Positions 42,503 through 64,000 of a stretch of 64,000 bases of DNA are shown piece after piece; the first letter of the stretch is position 1, and each line of letters opens with the position of its first letter. Made by a program: the position numbers and the translations under genes. The notes beneath the pieces are model-generated. The model ran no database searches and was not told where the DNA came from. It saw nothing but the letters and a program-made list of their open reading frames with translations. Source of the stretch: Paramecium tetraurelia (taxonomy: Eukaryota > Ciliophora > Oligohymenophorea > Peniculida > Parameciidae); NCBI RefSeq assembly GCF_000165425.1, contig NW_001798993.1, positions 189,064 to 253,063 of the forward strand. Direction: 5' to 3'.

Positions 42503-42905
42503 GTTTTCCGATTAATTTAGAATCTAATTCAAATATTAAATATAATATAGAAATATAATTTTTGAACTTAAATTATTTAAAAGTGGATTTGGAGCGACCA
42601 ACATTTAAATATTTTTATTTTGTAAAATAAAGGCATTTAGCCTTTAACCAATTAGTGTTTTGATAATTAAATAATATGCAAAATGAGGCAAATATCAATT
42701 ATTAAACATACAAAGAAATAAAATTAATTCTGGTTGCATTAGTGAGTATTTTGAGTTAATTCCAAAATTTGTATTTTAAGAGCAAATTCGGTTGCAAAGG
42801 ATGCCTATCCTTTTGTTTATTTTTCATTTGAGTTACAATTTTATTTGTTATAAAAATTACCTATTTTAAATGTCTAAACTGTAGATTTTCACATTATTTA
42901 TATTA
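42503..42905. other. Intergenic before the first giant gene
   Basis: 403 AT-rich bases, presumably the promoter of the giant surface-protein gene. No motif recognised. Confidence 0.45.
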
Positions 42906-45900
42906 ATGATTTAAGCATGCTTCGCAATAATTCTTTATATGAATTGTATAATCAAAGTTTTTGGAGTTAGAGAAGTGGTATCGACTTCATTTTAAGAAAT
43001 TACTTTTTCTGATGCGGATAGTAATAATAATGATATTCATTTAAATTTAGATTGGGTTGTAAATGGAGCCTAGCCAAAGCTCACTAAATGTTCAGGCTAT
43101 ACATTATTTGGAGGTTATAGTGTTTTTGGACCAAATACTGTAGTTGCAAAGACTTTTGCACTTCCACCTCATTATATGATAACTTTGCAATTTGGATTTT
43201 ATAGAATTGATTCATGGGATAATTAGAATTTTACGATTGTTATGGATGGGCATCCAGTAAGGTAAATCATGGCTGCAAATGATGGATCTTTTTATTGTGG
43301 GAATCAAGCAATGGCCGACAGGTTCTATCGTTTTAATATAGATTTTTATCATACAAGTCCTTCAGTTGTAATTTAGTTTAAAAGTAATTTAACAAGAACA
43401 GCTTATTATGTAATATAAATAAGATTATTTTTTAAGAATTCTTGGGGAATTAGAGAAATCATTTTATTTGTTGAGAAATGTCCTGAAAGATGCATTTTTT
43501 GTGATATCTTCAAAAATGGTGTTTCATGTTTAGCTTTATCTGTATTTTATAAAAGTTGGACTTAACTAAATGCAACAGAGATATCATCTGATGGTTGGAA
43601 TGTATATCTAGGAATTGCTGAATCAACATCCTGTGGATGTATATAAAAATGAATATGAATTAGCTGTTGCTTTATTTGGTGGCTATAAAAAGATAGGAGC
43701 CAATACAGTCCTCAAACAGTCTTTTTATAACATTCCAAACCATAACGAATTGTGGATTGAATTTTTTTTCGCTAAAATTGGTTTGTGGGAGAATATATAT
43801 TTATATCTTATAGTAGATGGTGTGCTTCGTTCAAAATTGCACTCTTGGGAGGATGGCGGCAATGGGTTTATTTGTGAAGATTCACCATAAAGTCAAAAAA
43901 CATGGTTTTATAGAGTTCGTTATTATATCAGTCATACGAGTAGTTAATTAGATATTTCCATTTATATCAAAAACAATATAAGTGGCATAATTGAGGATGA
44001 TTCAATTGGCATCAGGGACTTTTTAATTTATTATAATGATTGCCCTGAAGGAACTTATAGGAATGGGACCTATTGTTATTGTAATTGTGTCTTATTTTAA
44101 TTTAGCTTGCAATAAATCATGTTTTAAATGTGATGGTCCAAATTTAGATGACTGTACTGATTGTGGAGACCCAATAAGATATTAAAAATAATTAGTGGCT
44201 GGCTAATGCACATGCTTAGCAAGAATGGTTGAATATGATAACATAGATGGGACTACTTCATGTTAAAGTATTTTACTTTGAGTTAAATTTTAGCTTGCCA
44301 CCCTAAATGTCAGAGGTGTTTTATGTATTTTGATAATACAGTTAATCAATATTGCACAATGTGTATAGCAGGATAGAATAGAGTTGTTTCTTCTCAATAT
44401 ATGTGCGTTTGTGGAACAGGTTATGGTGAGGATGGCATTTCTGAAGTTTGCTTTAGTAATTATTTTCTTTATGTTAGAATGCTATTATACATGTCTACAT
44501 TGTAATGGTCTCTTAGCAAATAATTGTACAACTTGCTCATCCTAATCTAATCGTATTTTGACTTCTGATAGTCAGTGTTTATGCAACTAAGGATATTTTG
44601 ATACTGGAATAAACGAAATCATCTGTGAAAGTAAGTGATTAAAGATCTCAATTTATAGAAAATTGCCATAATACTTGCTCTAGTTGTGCTTCACCTAGCG
44701 CAGATTAATGTACAAGTTGTCCAGTTACAAGAAAACCTGATAGAATAGGAACAACTTTTGGATGCTTGTGCAATGATTCTCATAAATATAGTGATGATAC
44801 ACAATCAGAATGCTAGGAATGTCATTTCACTTGCAAAACTTGTTATGGGGCTGAATATAATAACTGTTTAACATGTGATGAAAATGCTTTTCGAAATTTC
44901 TCAATGAGAAAATGTATTTGTTCTGGTGGATATTATGGGGAAAACTAATTACAATGTCTCCGTAATTATTTTGAGTATTAAAAGCTTGTCATTATACATG
45001 CTTGACCTGCTTTGGTCCAGCTGAAAATAATTGTTTAACATGTGCGGATAGTAACAATAGAGTATTGAAAACTAATTTGTGTTTATGTCGAGATATTACA
45101 TATATGTAAAAATAGATTGGTGACGCTATGTGTTACAGTAAATAATATACTCAATACTAGAATGCTCATATCGTTGTTCCAGTTGCAGTAATGAAATAGA
45201 AAATTGTACAGCTTGTCCACCCTAATCTTATAGGGATCTAGGAGTAGATAATTCATGCTCTTGCCTCGCTAAGATGTATGACCAACCTAATAATCCAATT
45301 TGCATTCGTATATATGTGATTTAAACTAGCCTGTCATTACACTTGCTTAACATGTAATGGACCTCAATCAAATTAATGCACAGCCTGTTATGCTGAAATT
45401 ATGAGAGTATCAAATCAGTCAGGGTCTTGCTTATGTATGGATAAATACTATGAAGCTGGTAAACCTGATTGCTTACGTATAAATCAAATTAAATTTTAGC
45501 ATGCAGTGCCAATTGTTTGACTTGTGTGAACTCTGCGGATAATTGTATATCTTGTAAATCAGATAGATATTTATAGGGGAATACTTGTATTTGCCAGAAT
45601 AAGATAACTGGCGCCCTTATAAGTAAGTATGAAGTTAAAGGAAAAACCGATTGTCAAAGTGATATCTAATTAATTTAACATAGGTTGTCATTATTCTTGC
45701 TTAGAATGTTATGGATCAGAATTTAATCAATGTACTAAATGTTTGGATCGTGAAAGTAGAATTTTATCTAATTCTACTTGTGTTTGTGCTGGACACTATT
45801 TTGATATTGGGCAACCAAAATGTAAATGTATAATTGTAGACATAATTAATAGAATGCCAATATACTTGTGAAACTTGTGGTATGTCTACCACTTGTTTAA

Positions 45901-48900
45901 CATGTGCTCCAAACACTTTTAGAACTTTATCAATTTCACGATGTATTTGTTAATAAGGATATTTTGATGATGGATCAAATCCTATATGCTAAAGTACTTT
46001 AGAATAATATGATTTATAGAATGTCACTATTCTTGTTCTTATTGCTCATCCATTTCTACAAAATGTGATACATGTTCGTCGACATCCAATAGAGTAATAA
46101 ATCCATCAATATTTACTTGTGATTGCGTTGAATCTTATTATGATAATGGAGTTGAAACTTGCTCAAAATGTCATTATTCTTGCTTAGCTTGTAATTAATT
46201 TGGAAATTAATTTTGTCATTCTTGTAAAGAAAAGTCAATTTCTTTTAGAGTTTTTAATTAAGGATTCTGCTAATGTTTACCTGGATATTTTGATGATGGA
46301 GTCTCTCCTGTTTGTCAGAAATGCTTGATTTCCTGTTTGACTTGTTTAAACACTGCAACTTATTGTACATCCTGTGAATCAACAAGAAATTTCGAAGGAA
46401 ATAGTTGTATATGTAAAGAAGGTTATTTTGAAAAAAATCAAATTTCATGTGGTAAGTGTGATCAAAATTGTTTAAATTGCTCAATTAAATCTAATATGTG
46501 TACTAAATGTGATTAATCATTAATGAGAATTCTAAATAATGTAACTCAAACTTGTGTTTGCAAGACTGGAACAACTGAAATAAATGGATAATGCCAATAT
46601 TGTGATATTACTTGCGATACATGTTCAAATTTAATCACTAATTGTACTTCTTGCAAATCTTTGAGATTTTTATCTAGCAATAAATGCAACTGCATAGATG
46701 GTACATATGAGAGTAGCAGTGATAAATAGTGTCTATATTGCAATAAAACTTGCAAAACATGTATTAAAAAAGAAAACTATTGTACATCGTGTTCAGATGA
46801 TCTTTATAGGATATTTTCTTCAGGGAATATTTGTGTATGCAAAAATGGATATTATGAAGACTCAGTTTCTTTAGATTGTAAACCTTGCGATTCGTCTTGT
46901 TTAACTTGTAATACATAACCTACTTATTGCCTAACTTGTAATGCTAAGTACAACCTCAGTCTGAATGTCTATAATAAATGCGTTTGTTCTACAGGTTTAT
47001 ATTTTAACTCTTTAAGTTTAAAATGTGAAGGTATAAATTATTGATATTCATTCAGCTTGTAATATAAAGTGTTTGGAGTGTAAGTAATAGTAAGAATGCA
47101 TAGAGTGCGAACAATTTACTCGATATTTTGACCCAGACAAACTAGAGTGTCCATGCAAAGACGGATATTATGAGGTTAATGCAAAGACTTGTTAATGTAC
47201 AAAATTTAATAATAATATTAGTATGTGATTATGGATGTAAGACTTGCTAAACTTCAGCTACAAAATGCTTATCATGCGAAGCTCTTTATTATAGATTTTT
47301 AAACTTTAATAAATGTATTTGTTTGGATGGTTATTATGATATTGGGATTGAGATGTGTTAACAATGTGATACAATTTGTTTAACTTGTTAGAAGTCTTCA
47401 ACCTAATGTACTTCTTGTAACTAAACCCAACACTTTAGATCATTGAGTCTAAATCAATGTATTTGCTAAAGTGGATATTATGATATTGGTTAATTGGTTT
47501 GCCAAAGTAAAATTATGATTAATATTATAGAGTGCTCCAACTAATGTCTCACTTGTACAGGGTAGAAGGATTTTTGTACAAGTTGCGATATTTTATAATA
47601 AAGAATTGATCAATCTATTATAAATAAATGCCCTTGTTTAAAAGGTTTTTATTAAGATGTAAATGACTAATGTTAAAGTATTATTTGTTTATATAATCAG
47701 AATGTCATTATAAATGTTAAACATGTGTTTAATAGAATGATAACTGCTTAATTTGTACTTATTCAAAAACCTCAAATAGACTAAATATCTCTAACAATTG
47801 TATTTGCAAGGATGGGTACTATGATAATAACTTGTAATTGGATTGCTAAAAATGCAGTCCACAATGTAAATTGTGTTAAAACTCTTCAAATAATTGTCTA
47901 ACTTGCTATGGTGATCTGAGATAAGAACCTCCTACTTGTAACTGTAAACATGGTTTTTTTGAGACTATCCTTGGGTTTTGTGAACGTAATCAATTATCCT
48001 TATAATATAGCTTGTGAAAATTAATGTTATAATTGTGATAAAAGTCCTTCTAATTGTTTATCATGCAAAGAAGGGAGAGTCACTCAACTTTGTATATGTT
48101 AAGAGGGGTATTATGAAATCGGATAGCCTCAATGTGATTGTATTTTAATATTTATACTCTAAGAATGTTCGTTTTAATGCTAAACATGCAAGAATTCCGC
48201 CATAAATTGTTTAAGTTGTAAAGGAGATCGTATCAACATGCCTATTTGTTCATGTCCTGATGGTTTTTATGATGATTACTTGAATTATTCTTGTTAGGTT
48301 TGTAATTGGTTATGCTAAACATGTAACTTAAACGGCTGCCTAATATGTAAGGCAAATAGGATCTTATCTCCTGAAATGACTTGTGATTAACCACTAGATT
48401 CTGTGAGTTACCCTGATACTCCATGGTGTTCAAGTATTAATTTCTATTAATATCAAAGCTTGTTAAGTTGCTGTACTCAATATTAGGTTCTCCGATGATT
48501 TGCTGTCTATATAAGTTAAATTCGACTTCCCCTTAAATCCAAGTTTTTTCATTAATCAATTCTAAGAAAATATTTGTTCAAGAATATTAAAGGATCAAAC
48601 ATATTAATTACTTGGTAAGAATCCTAATTGTTATATTGATTCTAATGATGATACAATAATAATGTTAGGGGTAGGAAAAGATCCTAAGATTCTTCTAGGA
48701 GATCTGATCTTATTCTAAGAAAACTAAATTGGTCATCAAGGTTGCGATTCACTATTAATTTATTTTATCTTTAATGAAATTAAAAGCCCCTTAAACCCAG
48801 TATCTCCAATTCTAATTTACGATGAACCTACTTAGTTAATAAATCCTTGTGATGATAATATAATACCCTTGAAATCAATATTAAATGATGGACTTAGAAG

Positions 48901-51900
48901 TTTGATTGAAATAAAATGGACCTATTTTGTAATTGGGTCAAATGGCAAAGGTAATATTGACAACTTTATTGCTTCATAAACAAAATACTAGATTTTAGAA
49001 TTAGTTATCCCAATCTAAACTCTACCAAAGTAGTCCAATATTACCTTTGAGATAGAATTTAAAAATTTTGTTGCAGAATTTGGTGTAAAATCAATTCGAT
49101 TTTAAACTCATTCTGGTCTTTTCCCCACTATCCTTTGGGTTTCCAAACCTATCTATTATACTTTTGAACCTATTGCTATTGAATTTAAAATAAAAAAAAA
49201 GGTTTGCTTGGACACTGATGCTACTTAAGTTGATAAATCTTAATACTCTTTATCCTTAATTGAAGTGCATAAGAACGATTCTAATTCCAGGTCATCAAGA
49301 GTGAATTATTCAGAAATCACAAGTTAAAACAGTTTTATTGTTACCATTGAAAAATATATTTTGACTCCAATGGTTGCATATACTTTTGAATAAACAACAA
49401 ACGATTTAATACTTAACTTTTCAACTAAAAAAAATATTACACTTGAAATTAGCTCTGGAGGTATTATGTGTCAATTTAATGGCACCAAAAAGATTTAGAA
49501 TTTTAGAAAAGATACTTAAATATTCATATCTTGTAAAGACTTAGATACTTAATATGACTGGAATTAGGATCCTAATATTGAAATTGATATCAATTGTGTT
49601 GACTTTAATAGGAATTCCCTCTGTGTGGATTTATAAAACAAAATAATCCATATCAATAAAACTGATCCTTTCCAAGTCATTCCAAAATACACAATATCTC
49701 CTTACACTATTTAATGTTGGACAGTAGTAGCTAAAAAACTATCACGCTCATTTAAATTTTAAGTTAAAATTGTCTATATAGATCAAAATTTTGAATTATT
49801 GAATGTCACTTATAGTTAAGGGTATTTAAAGAGACCAGTCAATAACTATGAAAATTTGGAGTTCACCATTAATATTCCTTTTCAAGATAGGTAGTATCTT
49901 CTTGAATATCAAGTGGCTATCATTTATAATTTTGAACTCATAAGGATTTTACAATCTGAATACTTTTAATTCTAATTTAATATATTTGATTAATTTTAGA
50001 AATTTTCAGAAGGAAATACAATTAATTTGAAATTTTTGGCTTAGTTTACTAATGAGATCATACCTTGCCAAGAGGATTTATAATTAACGGTTAATTTACC
50101 TCCTTCATGCACGGTGAGTTTGAGTGAATAAATAGTTCAAGCATTAAAACCGTAAAAGATTATATCAAATTGCCTTTTTTCAAATGCAGCTCCTTTTACC
50201 TACTAATTGAGATATTTTCTTCATAATTAAGATTTAATTGATTTTTTGAGTAGAAAAAATGATTATTCATTAATTTTGAGTCCTTATTCAAGCTCAAATA
50301 TTATGGAAGGCTCTTTTCCATTTTCTGATGGCTTTCTTCTGATATAAGCAATGGATTCCAAAGGATCATACTCAAATATTTAAAGATAGTTAAATATAAC
50401 TTAGATTGTGCTTAATTGTTCCTAGATAAATATTTAGCAATATCCTTTAAGATATTAAATTTCATTATTATTAGAAGTTATATTGAACCATCAAGATTAA
50501 TAAAATTGTATTGATTTTTCCTAATAGTTGTATTCATATATCAAAGCCTTTTTAAATGCTGAGGATGATGATGATTAATTCTTAGTTTATCAGACCGTGA
50601 AAGTGTATAAAAGAATAATTAGAAATCGTAATAATTTGAACACTTCAAAGAGATTATTAGAAGATAAATAAGAGAGTTGCTTTTAGAATTCTTCAAAATC
50701 ATTTTATGTCTAAAGTACACTGTTTAATAATTCATCATTTCTAAATGCATCTAGTTTGCAAGCAGATTTACAATATATTATGGATACTGTTTAGAAAATG
50801 ATAAAAAAGTTAACTGACATTAAAGATTAAATTAACAAAAATGATTTGTTCTTGAATGAAAAACTGTATTAGAGCAAAGTAGCCACTTTGGAGTCTTTAT
50901 TAATTGCTTAGCTTTTAATAGATGATATTTATCTTAAGATTCCTATGGCCAACATTAATTCTACTTTAGATAAAGAAAAGATTTTTTAAATAGCAGAGGG
51001 ATTAATAGGTCTTTTTGAAGTGATTTCAATGCATGTTAACGATTACGCAAAGGTAAATGGCCCTCCTTTAATTAACGATGGGGAAATCATAAAATGGAAA
51101 TTATCCAAAATTACTAAGGTATAATTTAATAAACAATTTAACATTGAAAGAGATTAATTAGATGAATTGATTGAATTCGTTCAAAAAGAACAAATAGAAT
51201 TAAATTACAATTATTTAAATCTATCTCAACAATTATAAACATAATTGTAAGACTTCTATAATGTTACCACTATAAAAATATATGAGAAGAAATAATAGAG
51301 AGTTTATCTATAGAATCATCTTTATAATAATCGTTCTCTACATTATTAGGATCCACTTACAACATACATAATCGATATGATTTAAATTCCTTACTGCTAA
51401 GAATAGGTTCCTTTAGAAAAACTCTATACATATGAGTGTGTTAATATCAATCTGAAAGGATAATTATTTAAATGTGATTTTATAACAGAGGAGATTGATA
51501 ATAAAACTATGGTAATATCTTGCAGATGTCAAAAACTAGGAAGTATCTTTTTAATTTAATACCACAACAACTCAGCTCTATTATAAAATGACACTTTTAA
51601 TCCTTAGGAAAATAGAATTGACAATTCAAATGAAAAACTAGATTAGTAACCAATTTTATTATTTCATGGCATTTTCATCGTTTTTTCTTACCTCATCTAT
51701 TATGAATTACTTTAAATTGAAATGAGATCTAAATAATTACAGATAGAATCCAGATTAGAAACAGAAAATAGTGTAGATCCAGCTTTTTTCTACGTAAAAA
51801 CTCAGTAAATCATCTTTTATCCAGGAAATTTTGCTTTATTCAAAAAATACTTCAAAGTAAATAGCATTATAAATATCTAGTTTATTCATGAAGTATTATC

Positions 51901-52441
51901 CTGCTTTTATATGGATGATCCTATACTTCCAAAAAGTTATCGGTTTTTGTAGCTATCAATCAAAATAAGTATTTTCATCCTATTTTCATTTTTGTAACTC
52001 ACTCTGATTGATATATTTCCAATATCCATAATATCATTTGCCAATTGCGGAATTTACTTACTTATTAGAATGATTCTAAAAATATTTTAGTCGATTTACA
52101 GATTTGGTGGGAAATGTAGTAATTCTGTTATCATCTTTTATCTACTAATACATTTCTTATGTTATCTAGGGCTTGTTCTATAATTGAAGCAATGGTAAAT
52201 ATGAATTAATCCTTTTAGTTAAACAGAAATTTAAATAATCAACCTTAAGGTTTCCATTATTACAATAGTTTCACTCCTTTAATTTTATGTCATAATCGAA
52301 CCATTTATGATATTCTCAAGAATATTTCTTTTTAGGCATATTGCCATGTAAAGTAGACATTAAATAATTACTCCTTTGAATTAATTAATCTACTTTTTTG
52401 TTAAGCATAACACATTAGATGAACATTTGAATAATTATTGA
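42906..52441 (+). CDS. Giant cysteine-rich surface protein (lectin-like repeats, furin/EGF-like repeats, REJ/GPS-like region, membrane helices)
   Basis: 3017 codons after removing 20 introns of 19-28 bases. A signal peptide (MIQACFAIILYMNCIIKVFG) is followed by two tandem beta-rich repeats, residues about 30-240 and 245-380. Repeat one reads YTLFGGYSVFGPNTVVAKTF and repeat two SVALFGGYKKIGANTVLKQS. Residues about 386-1698 are Cys-rich units of about 50 residues (CHYTCLTC, C.CxxGYY), as in furin-like and growth-factor-receptor domains. A long non-cysteine region with beta-sandwich character ends in VISCRCQKLGSIFLIQ, a GPS-like Cys pair. Several membrane helices follow (PILLFHGIFIVFSYLIYYE onward). 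This order resembles polycystin/REJ-type receptors. Introns are at 43639-43663, 44087-44105, 44268-44293, 44456-44477, 44631-44658, 44962-44984, 45138-45160, 45308-45329, 45477-45499, 45659-45683, 45828-45852, 45994-46019, 47031-47055, 47197-47221, 47507-47530, 47678-47700, 47986-48010, 48140-48163, 48434-48458 and 52195-52218. Confidence 0.85.
44106..48458 (+). repeat. Tandem cysteine-rich repeat block with introns at unit boundaries
   Basis: About 25 related protein units, each opening with C(H/N)xxCxxC and closing with a C-x-C-x-x-G-(Y/F)-(Y/F) turn. Eighteen introns (44087-44105 through 48434-48458) lie in phase 1, one or two bases before the first Cys codon of a unit. The block 46020-47030 keeps about seven units uninterrupted. 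Confidence 0.8.
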
Positions 52442-55144: not shown

Positions 55145-58100
55145 ATGGTTTTTTTAATAAAGGCAATTATACTCTTATTACCCTTGCTAAGCCTAGCATA
55201 AAGAGTAAAACTTTAAGGATCGAAGTCTATACGTATGAATTGCAGAGAGATAGACAAAAGTTTAAAAAATTAATTTATTTTAGCAAACAATGGCTTTTTG
55301 GGAAGTTAGTACTTTTATCAGTCCCTTTCATAATCTAGAACTCTGCAAAATCTTGATAAGATTACATTTACTTTATGGATAAACGTTTATGAATAATCCA
55401 AATTAAATGGGAAGTAAATTTTGTTTGCTTTTGTTGATGGCAACACAAATAATCCTGTAAAGTATTTATTCATATTAGTATCTTAATTTAATGTTGTATT
55501 ACTAATAATCTACAGGAAATTATAATATGACATTAACGAATTAGAGATAGTCTCCAGAAATCCTTAACTTAACACGGTATAAATTTTATATATTCAAGGT
55601 AAAATGATCTTTATATTGGCAGCTGGTATCATATAGTTTTATCTATAGATTAAAGCACGAACCATACATTTATTAATTTGAAATTTTTTTCTACGATAGA
55701 TTAATAGATGAATTCAATTTAGGAGACTCTAGTGAATTAAAAGTAAATAATTTCATTAGTATTAGATTAAAATATAACTTTGGGGTACATTCTAGAATAA
55801 CAAATGAGTAATTATTTGGCTCCTCTACTGATTACAAAGCATGTGTCAACATTGCTAATTTTTATTACCATAACGGATGGACAACTATGGATTCAGAAAT
55901 TTATTTGGACTATGATTTAGAACTGAAATTTTTTTTAAAACCTTATCAGTTAAAAGGTCTAAATGTTTCAGATTAATATATGAATGTAAATCTGAGATAA
56001 AAGTCTAACCCAATAATTTATAGTGATTCTATTGGATTGTTGTTGTTTAAAAATACACAGATAGTGTACACATTTATGGAGGATCTAGTTTCCTTAACAA
56101 TGATGTTTTGGATTAAACCATAAAATATAAAATCGCTTTTTTAGTTTATTTCTTTGACTGATGATTCATTGTAGTCGACAAGCTTAGGTTTTGGAGTAAA
56201 TTTAGATTATTAATTATAATTTCATTAAAATTATAGTAATTATTTCTTAGGTTTACTTGGTAATAAAACATGGTTTCATGTGACAGCAGGTGTTTTGGAG
56301 CTAAGTTATAATGCTGATTTTATTCCAACAAATTAAAAAAAGCTATTAAGAGTTTATATTAATAGTGAATAGGTTTCATAGAAAATCATATACAACATAA
56401 GATCATACAAAAGATTAATTTTTGGACCACTATTTATTGATACTATTGGAGCAGAAATGATTGATATTTAAGATATCAGAATTTTTAAAGGTTATGGCAT
56501 TTAAGAAGGTCGAGGAGATTGCTTACTATTTGTTGGGTCATATTGTGCATTCTGTTAACCTAATACTCATTATTGCTATGAGCAAGATCCAAATGATGAT
56601 ACAAATATTTATATTTGTGCAGCTGGCTTTTATGAAACTTAGAACGGCTGTTATCCTATAACGATATAGAATTGTCTTAGACAATAAAGACAATAGTGTA
56701 AAATTTGTGCAGATAATTACAATTTATAAAACGGATAGTGCTATTAGATAGATTCTTTAGTGTCTCCATATGCTTGCTAAGATTCTAATGCAATATTTTG
56801 CATTAGAAACATATTGAAATCTATTGCTGAGAAGACCATTATTGAAATGAGCAAACTTTGTAAAACTAATTTTAACACTTAGAATATTAAGGCTCATTGC
56901 CAAGAAGATTTATCAAATAATTGCTTGTAGGCTCAATACTTTTAAAAATGCTTTAAATGCAGAAAAGATTACTATTTAACAGAATTAAATACATGTGAAA
57001 AGACTTGTACACAGGATTACAGATTTTCATATAATCAAGTTTGCCTAAAAAAGTGTCCAGAAAAATATTTATACGAGTATGATTGTAAAAATACATAATA
57101 ACAACTTATATACACATGCAACAGTGTGAAAAATTGCAAAAATAACGTAAGTAATATCAGTTATTATTGTCTAAATGATATCGAATTAACGGGTAAGTAT
57201 TTAAAATGTGATCATCCTAATTCAAACTAGGATAATAAAAACTAACTGGATTGCCACTTATCTTGTAAATATTGCTTTGGTGGAAAGGAAAATCAATGTC
57301 TGGGCTGTTATGAAGATTAATTCTTTAGTCCTTATGATACAACTTGTGTGAAGGATTGCAATAATCTTAGAATGTTCAAATATAATAATAGAGATACAAT
57401 GGTTTGCGAAATAGAATGTCCACGACCTTATTTAACATAGGAATTAGAATGTGTCAAGAATTGTAAATATGGCTATGCTATTTATAATGCTACAGTATGT
57501 CTTCCAAAAACTAAAATTACAGATAATTTCTTAATGACTTATTATGATACTTCCCAATAAATAACTATATTTGTTGATTGTCCTGAAGTTTGCTAAACAT
57601 GCATAAGTGAAAAAATTTGTACTAGTTGTCTAAATCATTATATTTTAAACGACAATAAATGTCTTACAACATGCTATCCACAATATCTCTATGTTAATAA
57701 AGATTATGTCAATCATTGCTTAAATAACTGTGATCCAAATGATTTTGTATATGATAATGTTAATATTGACGGATATTCAATTAGACAATGCTTCAAACTT
57801 AAATGTGGCTCTATCTAGATTAATAAAAAGTAATAAACTTATTTACATTAAACGAAATATCGTACTTGTGTTTATCCATGTGACGATCAGTATTATCCTG
57901 AATAAAAAACAAATTAATGCTCTAAATGCAACTCACCTTGTTATAATTGTTAAAACTCAGCTAATTTTTGTACTAAATGCTTGCCAGGTTTATTTCTATA
58001 AGATAATAGTTGTATAAATCCCTGCATTTCTAAATTTAAAAATTATATCAATAATCAGTGCGAAGACACATGCTCTAGCGGATTTACAATTAACGATAAA

Positions 58101-61100
58101 ATTAATGGCATTAAATATCAAGGCTGTGTTTCTTTTTGTGGGGAAATATTTTCTATGTTCCTTTATATACTCAATTTTTAATGCTACCAGACTCCCCCCA
58201 TTGGAGCGTATTGCATAGGCTACTAATGTTACGATTGCTATTATTAATGCAAGACTTGTTCTGGTCCCTAACAAAATGAATGTTTATCTTGTTATGATAA
58301 CACATTTTTTTTTGATAATTAGTGTGTAGTAGATTGTGATACTTAGTTTCATGATTTATTAAATTGGAAATGCGTCGATGTTTGCCCAAGCAATTCATAC
58401 ACTACTACATCTCTCAATATATTAATTAATACAGAAGTTAAACTAAAAATATTCTGTTCCTCCACGTGCTTACATAATTAATTCTAATATTAGGATTAAT
58501 GTACTGATACCTAACCAGAAGGAACTTCCTGTGTTCAAAAGTCTGATTATAAATTATGTGATAAATGTGTAACTGAATGTGAGGAATGTGTTGACCACTA
58601 TTCAACTACGTGTTAGAAATGTAATCCAGGATTTTATTTATACAATACTACTTGCTCATAGGAATGTCCTGATGATATTCCTTATAAAGATACACTTAAA
58701 AATATCTGTGTTGATTTTTGTGACAATAATTATTATCATTAAAATGGATTTTGCGTTGCTAGCTGTTTAGAAAATTATTACAGATACGATGCTCAGAAAT
58801 AATGTTATGAATTTGATTGTCCAAAAGGAACGTATAACAAAGTTTCTACACTTAATTGTTACGATTGTTCTCAAGGATGTGCTACTTGTCAGGATGGAAA
58901 ATCAAATTCATGTATCACATGTAAAGAAGGATATTTTCTGCAAGGTACTTCAAGATGTACAAATGTCTGTAATGTGAGTCCAGATCTTTATTAAGATTGG
59001 ATTAATGGAAAATGTGTTAACTAGTGTCCAACTGGAACATACTTGTAAACTTTACCTAGTGAGTAACTAGCATGTAAAAACACTTGTCCTTTATATTATT
59101 ATTCGAATCTTTGTGTTGCAATATGTCCTGTTCAATCTTTTCTTGAAGGAACAACTTGCACTTCATGTGCAGGAGCTTGTAGGCTGTGTTATGGTAGATA
59201 AGCTAACCAATGCACATAATGTAATTCTGGATATTATTTGGCTGATACTACTTGTGTTGAAATATGCCCAAATGCAACGCCTTATTAAAATCTAGCTGAT
59301 TAAACTTGTGTCTCAATTTGCCCACAAAATCATTTCTTGTATTTAGCAAAAAAATACTGTTTTAGCTATTGTCCAAGTACCTTAACTATTTATCAATTAA
59401 ATGGTAAAAATGAATGTGTTGATTAATGTTATTCTAACTCTTATCTATACTCAAGAACGTGCTATCCATGCCATAGTTATTGTTAAGAATGCTATGGACC
59501 AAAAAATGGAAATTGTTTATCATGTTCATCAGAATACTATTTTTATGAATAAAAATGTGAAATATCTTGTCCATCATAATTATACACTGATTTACTAGAT
59601 AGAAAGTGTAAAGTGTCTTGTCCATCCACTACTGTTATATAAGGTTAGTATTGTAAAACCAATTGTGATACAAATTATTATTAATATGGCTAACTTTGTG
59701 TCCTAAACTGTCCACAATTTACCTACAAATTAAGTGACAAATGTTTACTTTGCAACCCTCTATGTAGGTCTTGTAGTGGACCTTTAGCAACTTAGTGTTC
59801 TTCCTGCTTAGAAAATTATTTATTAAAAGGCAGTACTTGTACACAAGCTTGCCCAAACCTATATGATTACGAGACATAACAATGTGTGAGCACTTGTGAT
59901 AAAAAGCATGAGTTAACTGATTTCAAAAGTTGTGTGACAACTTGTCCTGCTGGATATCTATAATGTAGTGGAAAATGTTTGAAAACTCCACCAGATGGGT
60001 ATTATTCAGATGGAGTATATTGCATCTAATGCAATAGCAAATGTACCAAATGCACATCCCTAAATATATGTTAAGCGTGCAGTAGAAACTACTTTCTAAC
60101 TTTGTAGACCTGTGATAAGATTTGTACTAATAAATATCTTTACATGGATCCAACAACATAGACTTGCGTTACAAAATGTCCACCCTAACTTTTTCATTAA
60201 GAATCTTATGATAAAAGGAGTTGTGTTTAGGATTGTTTTTTAGGCTTTAAATTTAATGATTAATGCGTTAATTCTTGCCCAAAAGGAATGTATATTATGA
60301 ATAATTTCTGTACAAATTGCCCTTAGAAATGTGAAGAATGCACTTCAGTAACAAATTGCACTGCATGCTCTCAAAATTATTTTTTGGAAAATGGAAGGTG
60401 TTAGTTAGGTTGTTTGGTTGGCAAAATGGATTATACCACTCATGAATGTGTCTCATAATGCGATCCATCATTATTTGAATATCAAAACTCATGTTTAGTT
60501 AGCTGTCCCACAAATCCAGTATTATATTATCATTCAAATATTTGTATGGATGCATGTCCAAAAAATACATTCTAGAATAATTAAGAATGTCTTGATTGCG
60601 ATGTGTCATGTTCATCATGTATTGGCCCATCAAACAATGATTGTCTAGTTTGCAAAGAAACTTATTACTTGCATGACTAATAATGTACTCTCACTTGTCC
60701 TCATTTATATAATGAAGTAGATAGATCTTGTGTTATTTCTTGTCCTCCAAATCTTCTTTTAGATGGAAATAAATGTATTTTGATTTGTAGATAGTACATT
60801 TACTCTAATGCTTGTTTGTCAAACTGTCCACCTGGAACACACGATGCAAATTTCATATGCTACGATTGCTCTTAGGATTGTCTAGAATGCGATTCTTTTG
60901 GCTGTATTAAATGTGGCAATGGATCATTTTTAAATGATGGAATTTGTAGTAATTTTTGCCCATACTATTACAATATTATTTTAAATCAATGTGAGGAATA
61001 ATGTCCTGAAGGAACATTTCTTTATATTGATCAATGCTATGCATCTTGTCCAGCTAATACATATACATATCTGTAAACATGCCTTTTAGACTGTCCTTGG

Positions 61101-64000
61101 AGAACAACTTTAATAGAATCTATTTGCTACTAATGTCCAGAGAGATGTTCAGTTTGTAAAAATTAATATGAATGTCTTAATTGTGATGAACCTTATTACT
61201 AATATAAAGGAGAATGTGTTGTGGCATGTCCGATTGTACTTCCCTATTAAAATAAAATTTATCATGAATGTTAATCGGAATGTTCACCAAATACATATGA
61301 AAAAGGATATGAATGCGTTAAAGAATGCGATTTAATTATCTATTAGAATAAATGTTTAAAACAATGTCCCTATGGTTATTATGGTAATACTATATGTAAG
61401 GCATGTAAATTAGAGTGCAAGGCTTGCACTGATTTTAATATATGCACAGAATGTTCAGATAATTTTTACCTTGAGTATAACTCATGTGATACATAATGTA
61501 CAAGAATCATAGATTTGAAATAAAAGAAGTGCGTTGATTCATGTTCTTCTCTTTTGTATCAAAATGTGTGCTATGAAACTTGTCCTATAAACACCTATTA
61601 ATATAAAAATACTTGTCTTCGAAAGTGCTTAGATGGATATTTTGGTTCTATAGATTTCAAATGCGAAAAATGCCCTTTTTAATGTATCACATGCATCTCA
61701 TTTAACATTTGTAACAGTTGTAACGTCGGATATTATTTATTTCAAAATTAATGTTTAGATTAATGTCCTGATAAATTATTTTCAAACCCATTAATCAGTC
61801 AATGTTCATAATCATGTCCAGGTAAAACATTCACTTTTAAAAATTCATGCCTGTATCAATGTCCAAGTGATTATTTTAATGACACCGAAAGTTATAAATG
61901 TGTTTCATCTTGTGGCAAACAACAATATCCTGATAACAAAAATTGTTATCCCTGCTCATTTTAATGTGACTAATGCACAGCATATGGAAATTAAAATTGC
62001 ATAGCATGTGCGGCTAATTACGTTTTAACTGAAGATGGACGTTGTTTTGGAAAATGTAAAGATGGTTATTATTAAACGTCTAATTCCTGTGAGCAATGCT
62101 TACATAAATGTCTGACTTGTTAAAATGGCACAGAATGTTTATAATGCAGAGGAATGAATAGAGAACAAATTGACTGCTCATGTCCAAGAGGATTTTATGA
62201 TGATCCATTCTATGATAATTGTTAATAATGTCCTTGCGAGGAATGTACTTCTGAATCTGAGTGTTTAGTCTGCAAAAATAACCTATAAGTACCCAACTGT
62301 TCATGCAACAGGAGACTTAATAATGATTGGTGTATTACTTGTTTAATAGCATCTGTCAATATATATTATTCGGATGACCTAAATTCAATAATAGTTTATT
62401 TTGGATATTTAATATCTGTTAATTTAATTAATCCGTTCGAACCCTCAAGCTGTTCTTTTTGGTTTAATAATGCTGAAATATTTGGACAAGATGCTTAATG
62501 CTACTTGTCATGGGACAGATATGCAGTTCACATCTTATTGGAGCTTTACGCTTCTGTAAATATTGGAGATGAATTAAGTTTCTAATAATCTTTTTACCTA
62601 GATGTAAATGAAGGTCTTTGTAATGGATAATATATTGAGACATTTATTGATAGTACTGTGAAGGCACCATCATCTTAAACAAAACCTTATATACTTTTTG
62701 ATGTACCATCTGTTGTAAGTACTTGTAAGACTATTGAAATTAAACAAATATTACTCGAAGGAACAGCAAAGAAGATTCAAGAGGTGTTATTTTGGACCCT
62801 TCATGAAATGGAAAATGATGATTACTATTTTGAAATGGAGGCATTCTTAGGAAATTAAAAAAATGAATTCATCATTCCTATAGGTACCCTAGCTTCTAAT
62901 GTTACATATACCATAACAGCCAAATATATTAATTTCATAAAAAGAGTGAATTTCACAACATTCACATTCACCACACTACCAGATCTTGTTCCTTATGTCT
63001 TTCTATAATATAATCCTTTGATGGCTAGGGTCTATGTTTTTGATTGTAAAGTCACATATTCTGACATGAAAAATGAATTCAATTTGACTATTTAAGTATC
63101 TGATTCCAATAATAAAACTTATTTAGTCATAAAGCAATCCATTAATCCAATTTATGAAGTTCTATTAGACGAATCTCTTTTACCCAAAGAAACACCATTA
63201 CTTTTTATGGCATCAACAGGAAGCTCTGTAATTCATGAAAAGATATGGCTAAAATCAAAAAGGATTGAAATTTAATTCCATTAAAAGAATAGATTTATTG
63301 GATTAGACAATTAAATTAATTCAAGAGCCTTTGATAGAAATATATAAGATGTAGTGTTAAGTACTTTAAATATTTAATATTAATGGTAATGTAATAATTT
63401 ATTCAATTTATAACCTTGTAAGACAAAAGAAAATAAAATTATGGAATTTCCATCCAGAAGAATTGTTGATATCCTTGCAGATAGTTAAAATACTACTTTC
63501 GTCTTTTTTGTTAAAGCATCTAAAGACACGAGATGGACAGTAAAGGAATAGTTGATAGTTGTCACAGATTTTGAAATCGAGGAAGAATTCGTATTAAATT
63601 AAGAAGTACCTCAAAATACTGTGAATCTAAATAATGAAATAACTATTTTAATTAAAAATAATTAAAAATATGCTTTCATTATGTAAGAATTCAAAATTTT
63701 GGCTTCTATCAAATCTAAAGACTCAACTTTAAAGATTAGGCTCGCGGGATTGACAACCAATTATAAAAGTCCTGTGTACATATATCTAGTTCCAGGCAAT
63801 GAATCTATATCATTTCAACTTAACAGTCCTCCTTCTGAAGTTTAATTCAAAATTTATCCTTTTGTAGGTGAATCTTTAGATTACTTTAACTATTCAATCC
63901 AAAACCTACAACCTGGAAACAATTTTAGCATTTATTACTATTTTGAGATTTATATTCTCTAAATTGATGTAATTCAATAATCCATCGATTATGGTATTCC
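55145..64000 (+). CDS. Second giant cysteine-rich surface protein (LamG-like domains, furin-like repeats, REJ-like region), 3' partial
   Basis: The frame is open to the window end, about 2921 codons. The signal peptide is MVFLIKAIILLLPLLSLAQ. Introns used: 55260-55283 (unusual GTTT donor), 55457-55478, 55577-55598 and 55743-55765. After these no intron occurs for 8.2 kb. Two concanavalin/LamG-type domains are seen. The first has LDKITFTLWINVYEQSK and IGSWYHIVLSIDQS. The second has SLTMMFWIKPQNIKS, NKTWFHVTAGVLEL and LRVYINSEQVSQ. Residues about 420-2370 carry dozens of Cys-rich units with CPxG(T/Y) and C.TC turns, typical of furin-like repeats. From about 2370 a Cys-poor beta-rich region matches in style the REJ-like part of the first giant protein. 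Membrane helices would lie beyond the window. An alternative splice of the first LamG domain is possible. Confidence 0.85.
56500..62340 (+). repeat. Intronless cysteine-rich furin-like repeat block
   Basis: About 5.8 kb coding for continuous Cys-rich units (CPxGTY, C.xC..GYY, CxxCxxC patterns). Units vary from about 35 to 60 residues and carry a shared CP(x)nC spacing. No TGA and no needed intron occur in the whole block. Confidence 0.8.

Follow-up and report, generated by a model that had tools for sequence, protein, structure and literature searches.

Tiny introns that recur at the same place in one repeat unit after another raise the question of how they came to be there: were they carried along as the units multiplied, or were they placed at the joints of an array that already existed? 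We address this question for gene 1 of Paramecium tetraurelia, which lies in a stretch of 64,000 nucleotides (nt) (contig NW_001798993.1 of assembly GCF_000165425.1, positions 189,064-253,063; the whole stretch is hereafter the window) and encodes an array of cysteine-rich units with introns at many of its joints. Comparison with 16 relatives from the same genome shows that intron placement is an old, fixed feature, present in the sister genes as far as these are readable, and not a sign of recent unit shuffling. The explanation that we favour, with moderate confidence, is one early episode of phase-1 intron gain at module joints on the stem of this gene family, followed by stasis.

Gene 1 occupies 42870..52441 on the forward strand (from gene models, the end at 52441 coming from a single model) and is predicted to encode a giant secreted or membrane protein. 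Its product begins with a signal-peptide-like start (MSKLQIF, at 42870), continues through a middle part of 27 units with eight cysteines each, and ends in a region of ~1,130 residues and C-terminal hydrophobic segments. The unit layout is C1-x3-C2-x2-C3 ... C4-x2-C5 ... C6-x-C7 ... C8, with two linker residues between C8 and the C1 that opens the next unit. Genes were modelled with genetic code 6 (TAA and TAG as glutamine) and GT-AG introns of 18-38 nt allowed; a codon model trained on few long frames lacking the array produced wrong frames inside it, and a retrained model was used. Junctions were also scored in the DNA by a rule that called them intron-free where C-x-x-C was direct, and intron-bearing where a GT-AG stretch ended two bases before C1 with a cysteine codon shortly upstream. 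The rule, which itself requires the second linker codon to be split after its first base, was then widened to GT-AG stretches ending five bases before C1.

The array of gene 1 contains 18 predicted tiny GT-AG introns between 44081 and 48458, 22-28 nt long and all in phase 1, each in the C8-x-x-C1 linker that joins consecutive units. Seventeen stand ahead of a unit, while the 18th marks the exit from the array, before TCQVAV. A preliminary description of the sequence had placed 18 such introns just before the codon of the first cysteine, and this holds: in 17 of the 18 the split codon directly precedes the next cysteine, and only intron 4 has one extra codon between. Intron 1 (25 nt; gene model) is better placed at 44081..44105, with a GTA donor, than at the alternative donor 44087, and is in phase 1 either way. 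Introns 2 (44268..44293, 26 nt), 3 (44456..44477, 22 nt) and 4 (44631..44658, 28 nt; gene model and junction rule) follow, and then introns 5 (44962..44984, 23 nt), 6 (45138..45160, 23 nt), 7 (45308..45329, 22 nt), 8 (45477..45499, 23 nt), 9 (45659..45683, 25 nt, GTG donor), 10 (45828..45852, 25 nt) and 11 (45994..46019, 26 nt). The remainder of the array holds introns 12 (47031..47055, 25 nt), 13 (47197..47221, 25 nt), 14 (47507..47530, 24 nt), 15 (47678..47700, 23 nt), 16 (47986..48010, 25 nt), 17 (48140..48163, 24 nt; called by the junction rule after being missed by the first gene model) and 18 (48434..48458, 25 nt, at CS/TCQVAV; gene model). Introns 2, 3 and 5 to 16 come from the gene model together with a check of exon lengths.

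Introns thus precede 17 of the 27 units, and the other ten junctions are direct C-x-x-C in the DNA. Six of these ten fall inside a single exon of 1,011 nt at 46020..47030, which comprises seven units (block junctions with C1 at 46169, 46322, 46457, 46601, 46739 and 46886), just as the preliminary description had reported seven or so consecutive units there without introns. The other four are scattered, with C1 of unit 5 at 44820..44822, of unit 21 at 47365..47367, of unit 24 at 47853..47855 and of unit 27 at 48301..48303. The impression that introns mark almost every unit was therefore right as to phase and position and too generous as to frequency, these four joints having gone unmentioned. 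All 17 internal exons are multiples of three in length, at 129-162 nt for one unit, 270-303 nt for two and 1,011 nt for seven, and have phase-1 introns on both borders, so that the idea of exons as symmetric 1-1 repeat units is borne out in the form of whole numbers of units.

In the window, the strict form of the DNA pattern picked out 15 intron-bearing and 26 intron-free junctions on the forward strand (10 of the latter in gene 1 and 16 in gene 2, a distant relative treated below) and none on the reverse strand, and 20 mononucleotide-shuffled windows gave on average 0.0 and 0.05 respectively; given these near-zero counts and the empty reverse strand, the pattern does not arise by chance. A run of six intron-free joints appeared in 1.3% of shuffles, which makes the block somewhat unexpected. 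Junctions in the tail of the array (47031-48458) read intron, intron, none, three times over. A three-unit duplication as the source of this period was rejected: units three apart in the tail resemble one another no more than other units do (0.55 against 0.61), and 6% of shuffles produce the pattern somewhere.

Paralogs within one genome provided the comparison set for both intron pattern and unit number. A DNA search of the same genome (69 megabases, 231 contigs) returned at least 50 matching places, from which 16 array-bearing relatives were fetched, modelled and aligned with gene 1. The resulting matrix of 17 genes leaves out C47, a fragment without array, and C160, a truncated copy, as well as three unit-start columns upstream of unit 1 (273, 368 and 544), where the N-terminal regions align poorly; other search matches, among them C220, C225, C167, C60 and C91, were not used. 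Introns that at first appeared absent from paralogs were mostly stretches of a length divisible by three that the gene model had read through, and these calls were replaced by the junction rule. The ~1,130 C-terminal residues beyond the array are conserved in the family (six relatives 33-66% identical to gene 1 in a set of seven sequences), and 419 of 430 extracted family units, trimmed at the eighth cysteine, contain eight cysteines.

Across the 17 genes, the 17 intron junctions carry an intron in 266 of 270 readable cells, and the ten intron-free junctions are direct C-x-x-C in all 162 readable cells. Two of the four exceptions, ahead of unit 10 in C71a and ahead of unit 22 in C186, are clean losses. 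The other two, in C202 (L022) and C71e (L027) before unit 9, are unclear: the AG lies three bases ahead of C1, so that canonical splicing there would shift the frame. The stretch before unit 9 in these two genes is possibly an exonised intron or an error. Position relative to the cysteine, which the preliminary description took to be constant, is nearly so across the family, with 257 of the 266 introns directly followed by the cysteine and nine separated from it by one extra codon. For the 18th intron, the models of 15 of the 17 genes share one column (the C171 model lacks it, and C71e ends before that column). One intron-free cell, in C209, also has a GT-AG string upstream. Exactly 27 units, with no extra one in the alignment, are found in ten of the 17 genes. 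C16 and C144 reach 27 on inspection of the DNA, where their supposedly lost units are present with the family intron state, so that unit loss in these two genes was rejected. The remaining five, whose arrays are incomplete or in part unreadable, agree over their legible stretches (in C71a, C71e, C207a and C207b the array is cut by the start or end of the stretch or by a run of N, and unit 22 of C71c is unreadable). Unit 6 of C16, unit 13 of C144 and unit 12 of C207a fit the pattern in the DNA and stand outside the counts of 270 and 162.

No unit gain or loss, and no unit beyond the 27 columns, was seen in the 17 genes, and the same joints are with or without introns throughout the readable parts; the suggestion of introns tied to the multiplication or loss of units finds no support here. 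None of the 16 or 17 readable genes has an intron at any of the six block junctions, nor does any of the 16 readable ones at the junction of unit 5. The block is therefore no peculiarity of gene 1 but, as far as the genes were read, ancestral and as old as the family. Intron loss or duplication of spliced units within gene 1, as proposed for the block in the preliminary description, does not fit a block common to the family, nor does unit similarity follow intron state. Introns common to more than two genes occur in the cysteine-rich and N-terminal parts, and the C-terminal region has just one column of this kind. In the N-terminal parts of C63, C2, C209, C202, C71c-e, C207b and C186, more phase-1 introns were observed shortly after a cysteine at the borders of domains outside the array.

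All of this presupposes that the stretches are introns. It is highly improbable that they are instead internal eliminated sequences that persisted in the assembly, or in-frame spacers, although two of the 18 (those at 47507 and 48140) have lengths divisible by three and no in-frame TGA, and could be read through. The other 16 would shift the frame if kept. The 266 family introns have the GT-AG ends and, apart from one of 19 nt, the length of 20-34 nt by which Paramecium introns are recognized (range 19-29 nt), and among introns in conserved columns 283 of 294 donors are GTA and 216 of 294 acceptors are TAG, as is usual in Paramecium. Moreover, only 54 of the 266 have a length divisible by three, against an expected one third (binomial p = 3e-6). 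Depletion of such lengths is a known mark of real Paramecium introns, according to the excerpted text of PMC11334263, and splicing here thereby gains indirect support. The 18 stretches of gene 1 would then be ordinary, constitutive tiny spliceosomal introns, with splicing predicted from these features.

Whether units carry their introns with them can be judged from their resemblance to one another. In permutation tests, similarity of units within genes was unrelated to intron state (p = 0.17 for intron-free units and p = 0.51 for the contrast), and the same was seen when units were labelled by the following junction instead (p = 0.08 and 0.34). In a tree of 135 units from five of the 17 genes, units grouped by position, needing 34 changes against 115.6 after shuffling. 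Set against the presence of the preceding intron, a check that the preliminary description had proposed, this tree required 12 changes of intron label, a count to be read with the label unshuffled and with 45 columns leaving most deep forks open. Unit 13, the first in the block after its leading unit, is nearest to units 12 and 10, both of which have introns.

More distant relatives, found by a search with the C-terminal region and counted only over the stretches fetched, have arrays of the same kind without introns at the joints. Strict junction introns numbered 0/22 in C134, 0/7 in C134b, 0/39 in C89, 0/7 in C198, 0/6 in C215, 0/7 in C174, 0/10 in C70, 0/3 in C108 and 0/3 at a second place on C2; the gene models agree, the single intron modelled in C89 being in phase 2 with a score of -14.6. 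Gene 2 of the window (56596..64000, forward strand, its start from a single model and its end past that of the window) belongs here too, with 16 strict junctions and no introns. It contains furin-like repeats (PF15913, 53.5 bits against a cut-off of 28) and shares C-terminal similarity with gene 1. A Pfam search of C134 returned no usable family. Because arrays in these relatives are comparable or larger (at least 22 junctions in C134, 39 in C89), introns are not needed for units to multiply. A phase-0 intron in the 3' part falls at one column in an alignment of gene 1, C16, C186, C134 and gene 2; as C134 and gene 2 have kept it, they do not look like intron-free retrocopies. In gene 1 a C-terminal phase-0 intron lies outside the array at 51857..51880 (FK/FIHE, forward strand), and 12 of the 17 family models share this column.

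Part of the array can be matched across this divide. By eye, the family, C134, C134b, C89, C198, C215 and C174 have in common a terminal unit whose C3 and C4 stand few residues apart. Counted from the array end, the diagonal scores between the family and C134 run 82, 46, 8, 11, 12, 26, 15 and 7 and then fall to about zero. Averaged over 16 places, offset 0 gives 12.7 and none of the offsets 1-10 exceeds 4.0, a signal due mainly to the last two units. For three C134 units, the family unit that matches best is the one in the corresponding place (26, 27 and 22). At least the intron ahead of unit 26 and the one that follows unit 27 would thus occupy joints already present as single copies. In an unrooted tree of 23 C-terminal regions, the 16 intron genes included all fall on one side of a branch (support 94/96).

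Rates estimated from the family suggest that the change on this branch was no steady trickle. The family tree, 6.92 changes per site in length, holds two losses. At that rate, all 17 introns would disappear independently on a branch of 2.0 changes per site with a probability of ~2e-25 (3e-16 if the upper loss rate is taken). For gain, the upper rate set by zero gains at ten sites would yield ~3 introns over 27 sites on the same branch. Either direction therefore needs a concerted event. These figures are approximate: a single region supplied the branch lengths, and the value of 2.0 is an assumption, C134 lying 3.1 from the common node of the family.

We hypothesize that introns mark the module joints of this family because its ancestor gained them at one site of the repeat. 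Under this proposal, phase-1 introns would have arisen in the C8-x-x-C1 linker ahead of 17 of the 27 units and at the array exit, all in one episode, and the pattern, including its ten intron-free joints, would afterwards have been inherited almost unchanged through duplication of whole genes. We infer the direction to be gain rather than loss, and likewise the way of gain. A tentative and rather unlikely refinement is that one intron copied itself into the matching joints of sister repeats while no unit moved, whether through gene conversion between repeats or through reverse splicing at the repeated joint with subsequent return to the gene. Were this true, 18 introns would have spread in one episode, modularizing a repeat protein without exon shuffling, and the same would have happened a second time in the family of C221, a gene that lies outside the C-terminal search matches and is joined here with a second gene, C155, 45% identical to it in the next exon.

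Several observations weigh against an early gain confined to this stem. The part of C221 that was read has seven phase-1 joint introns (six modelled and one of 27 nt found by eye), which sit among other joints without intron, and 900 bases of C155 hold two junction introns whose places match those of C221 by eye. The joint intron is thus not confined to the gene 1 family, and the chance of an origin before the family, or of a favoured target, is raised. The diagonal unit is the best match at only three of the last seven C134 places (27, 26 and 22), others pairing off the diagonal (24 for 25, 14 for 24, 21 for 23 and 22 for 21). When introns from different joints are compared, no clear residual similarity is left (0.427 inside one gene, 0.420 across genes and joints and 0.413 after shuffling, over a random 15% of pairs), so that a common source cannot be shown. 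Finally, gene 2 stands on a long branch of the unrooted tree (support 80/66), and if the root lay on the family stem, a single concerted loss in the relatives would fit the sequences equally well.

The last point leads to an explanation that we regard as less probable, in which an ancestral unit already bore the intron, the array was built by duplicating unit and intron together, and the intron-free joints and relatives reflect later, partly concerted losses. It would account directly for the same phase and position at every intron joint and for the same joint introns in C221 and C155, and most of the array may postdate the split from C134, since beyond the last eight units no one-to-one match to C134 is found. 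Intron state does not track unit similarity, however, and of 12 C221 units of known state only six agree with their best-matching family unit, which is ill suited to introns that travelled with units. Complete loss would also be required in the read stretches of C134, C89/C198, C215/C174 and gene 2, even though C134 and gene 2 kept the 3' intron and the family itself shows two losses in 270 cells. Independent insertions at a recurring proto-splice site of the joint, whose commonest word is TGY TAA A/AA TGY (the slash marking the intron), are a doubtful alternative: a target word does recur in the array, the split codon being AAA or TAA in 132 of 257 cysteine-adjacent introns, and introns stand at the same joint in the second gene pair, but AAA or TAA is at least as frequent at the intron-free joints (96 of 162), where no cell has an intron, and introns in more than two genes are confined to the cysteine-rich and N-terminal part, save one C-terminal column. 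Early gain followed by stasis remains the reading that we prefer. Gene 1 exons are modular in form and show no sign of shuffling within the family, and introns of ~24 nt probably offer too little length for recombination inside them.

A few features surround this main subject. Loci L044, L045 and L047 hold the C221/C155 pair, which has phase-1 introns at the same C8-x-x-C1 joint; C221 resembles DUF4215 weakly, with 22.4 bits where the cut-off is 27. Pfam searches with pieces of gene 1 (the seven-unit exon, one single-unit exon and the N- and C-terminal exons) returned nothing above cut-off, including the furin-like repeat models PF00757 and PF15913. The GPS and GAIN models did not match the C-terminal exon, where only ARMC9_ARM appeared, below cut-off, and a sequence search of the PDB with the C-terminal region gave nothing at E 0.1. 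By eye, a GPS-like CxC motif precedes a hydrophobic stretch in that region. A natural guess from these predicted features is that the product is a putative cell-surface receptor. A search for furin-like families across the genome gave no signal anywhere, its controls being likewise silent. Contig C71 (128500-215326, L023-L027) holds five family members in both orientations, and C160:1-9000 (L017) a relict-like copy that lacks the part matching the window at ~46686-48536 and whose C-terminal match is interrupted by an in-frame TGA. Contigs C160, C71 and C207 (L017, L027 and L028) begin or end within family members, perhaps because the copies hindered assembly. No telomere repeats were present at the five contig ends looked at, and we therefore claim no subtelomeric location.

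Where exons agree with modules, past exon shuffling is the usual explanation; the deep set of paralogs described here shows such agreement without a sign of shuffling. Two steps that are usually inferred together, the placement of introns at module borders and the movement of modules, thus come apart, and this genome allows the first to be studied alone, with 17 genes and up to 27 comparable sites as material for measuring rates of intron gain and loss. Like typical Paramecium introns as given in the excerpts of PMC11334263, PMC9612004 and PMC12862383, those of the gene 1 family are ~25 nt long, typically run from GTA to TAG and are depleted of lengths divisible by three; unlike usual Paramecium genes in those texts, with ~2-3 introns, gene 1 has 18 in one array at one repeat position. 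Among the matches listed in the open-licence literature, no report of unit-aligned phase-1 introns in Paramecium cysteine-rich genes appeared. The closest ciliate parallel is the leucine-rich repeat family of Tetrahymena, for which the excerpt of PMC6564038 describes unit-sized exons of 90 bp, phase-2 introns and varying exon number, and invokes clonal expansion with exon shuffling. Both are ciliate repeat families with arrays of unit-sized exons and nearly all introns in one phase. Unlike the Tetrahymena arrays in that excerpt, gene 1 is cysteine-rich, with introns in phase 1 and of 19-29 nt rather than ~56-260 nt in its family, single-unit exons of 129-162 nt rather than a fixed 90 bp, ten of 27 joints intron-free and no turnover of copy number seen among paralogs. 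The modularization hypothesis, as presented in the excerpt of PMC8001218, holds that introns, preferably of phase 1, were inserted at domain borders before shuffling, and the same text regards exon shuffling as all but confined to animals. Like the class 1-1 modules of animals described there, gene 1 consists of disulfide-rich modules of extracellular type flanked on both sides by phase-1 introns; unlike them, it belongs to a ciliate, its introns are ~24 nt long and its modules are bounded yet without sign of shuffling. By what is known, and by analogy with that excerpt, the gene 1 family may represent the first step of modularization without the second.

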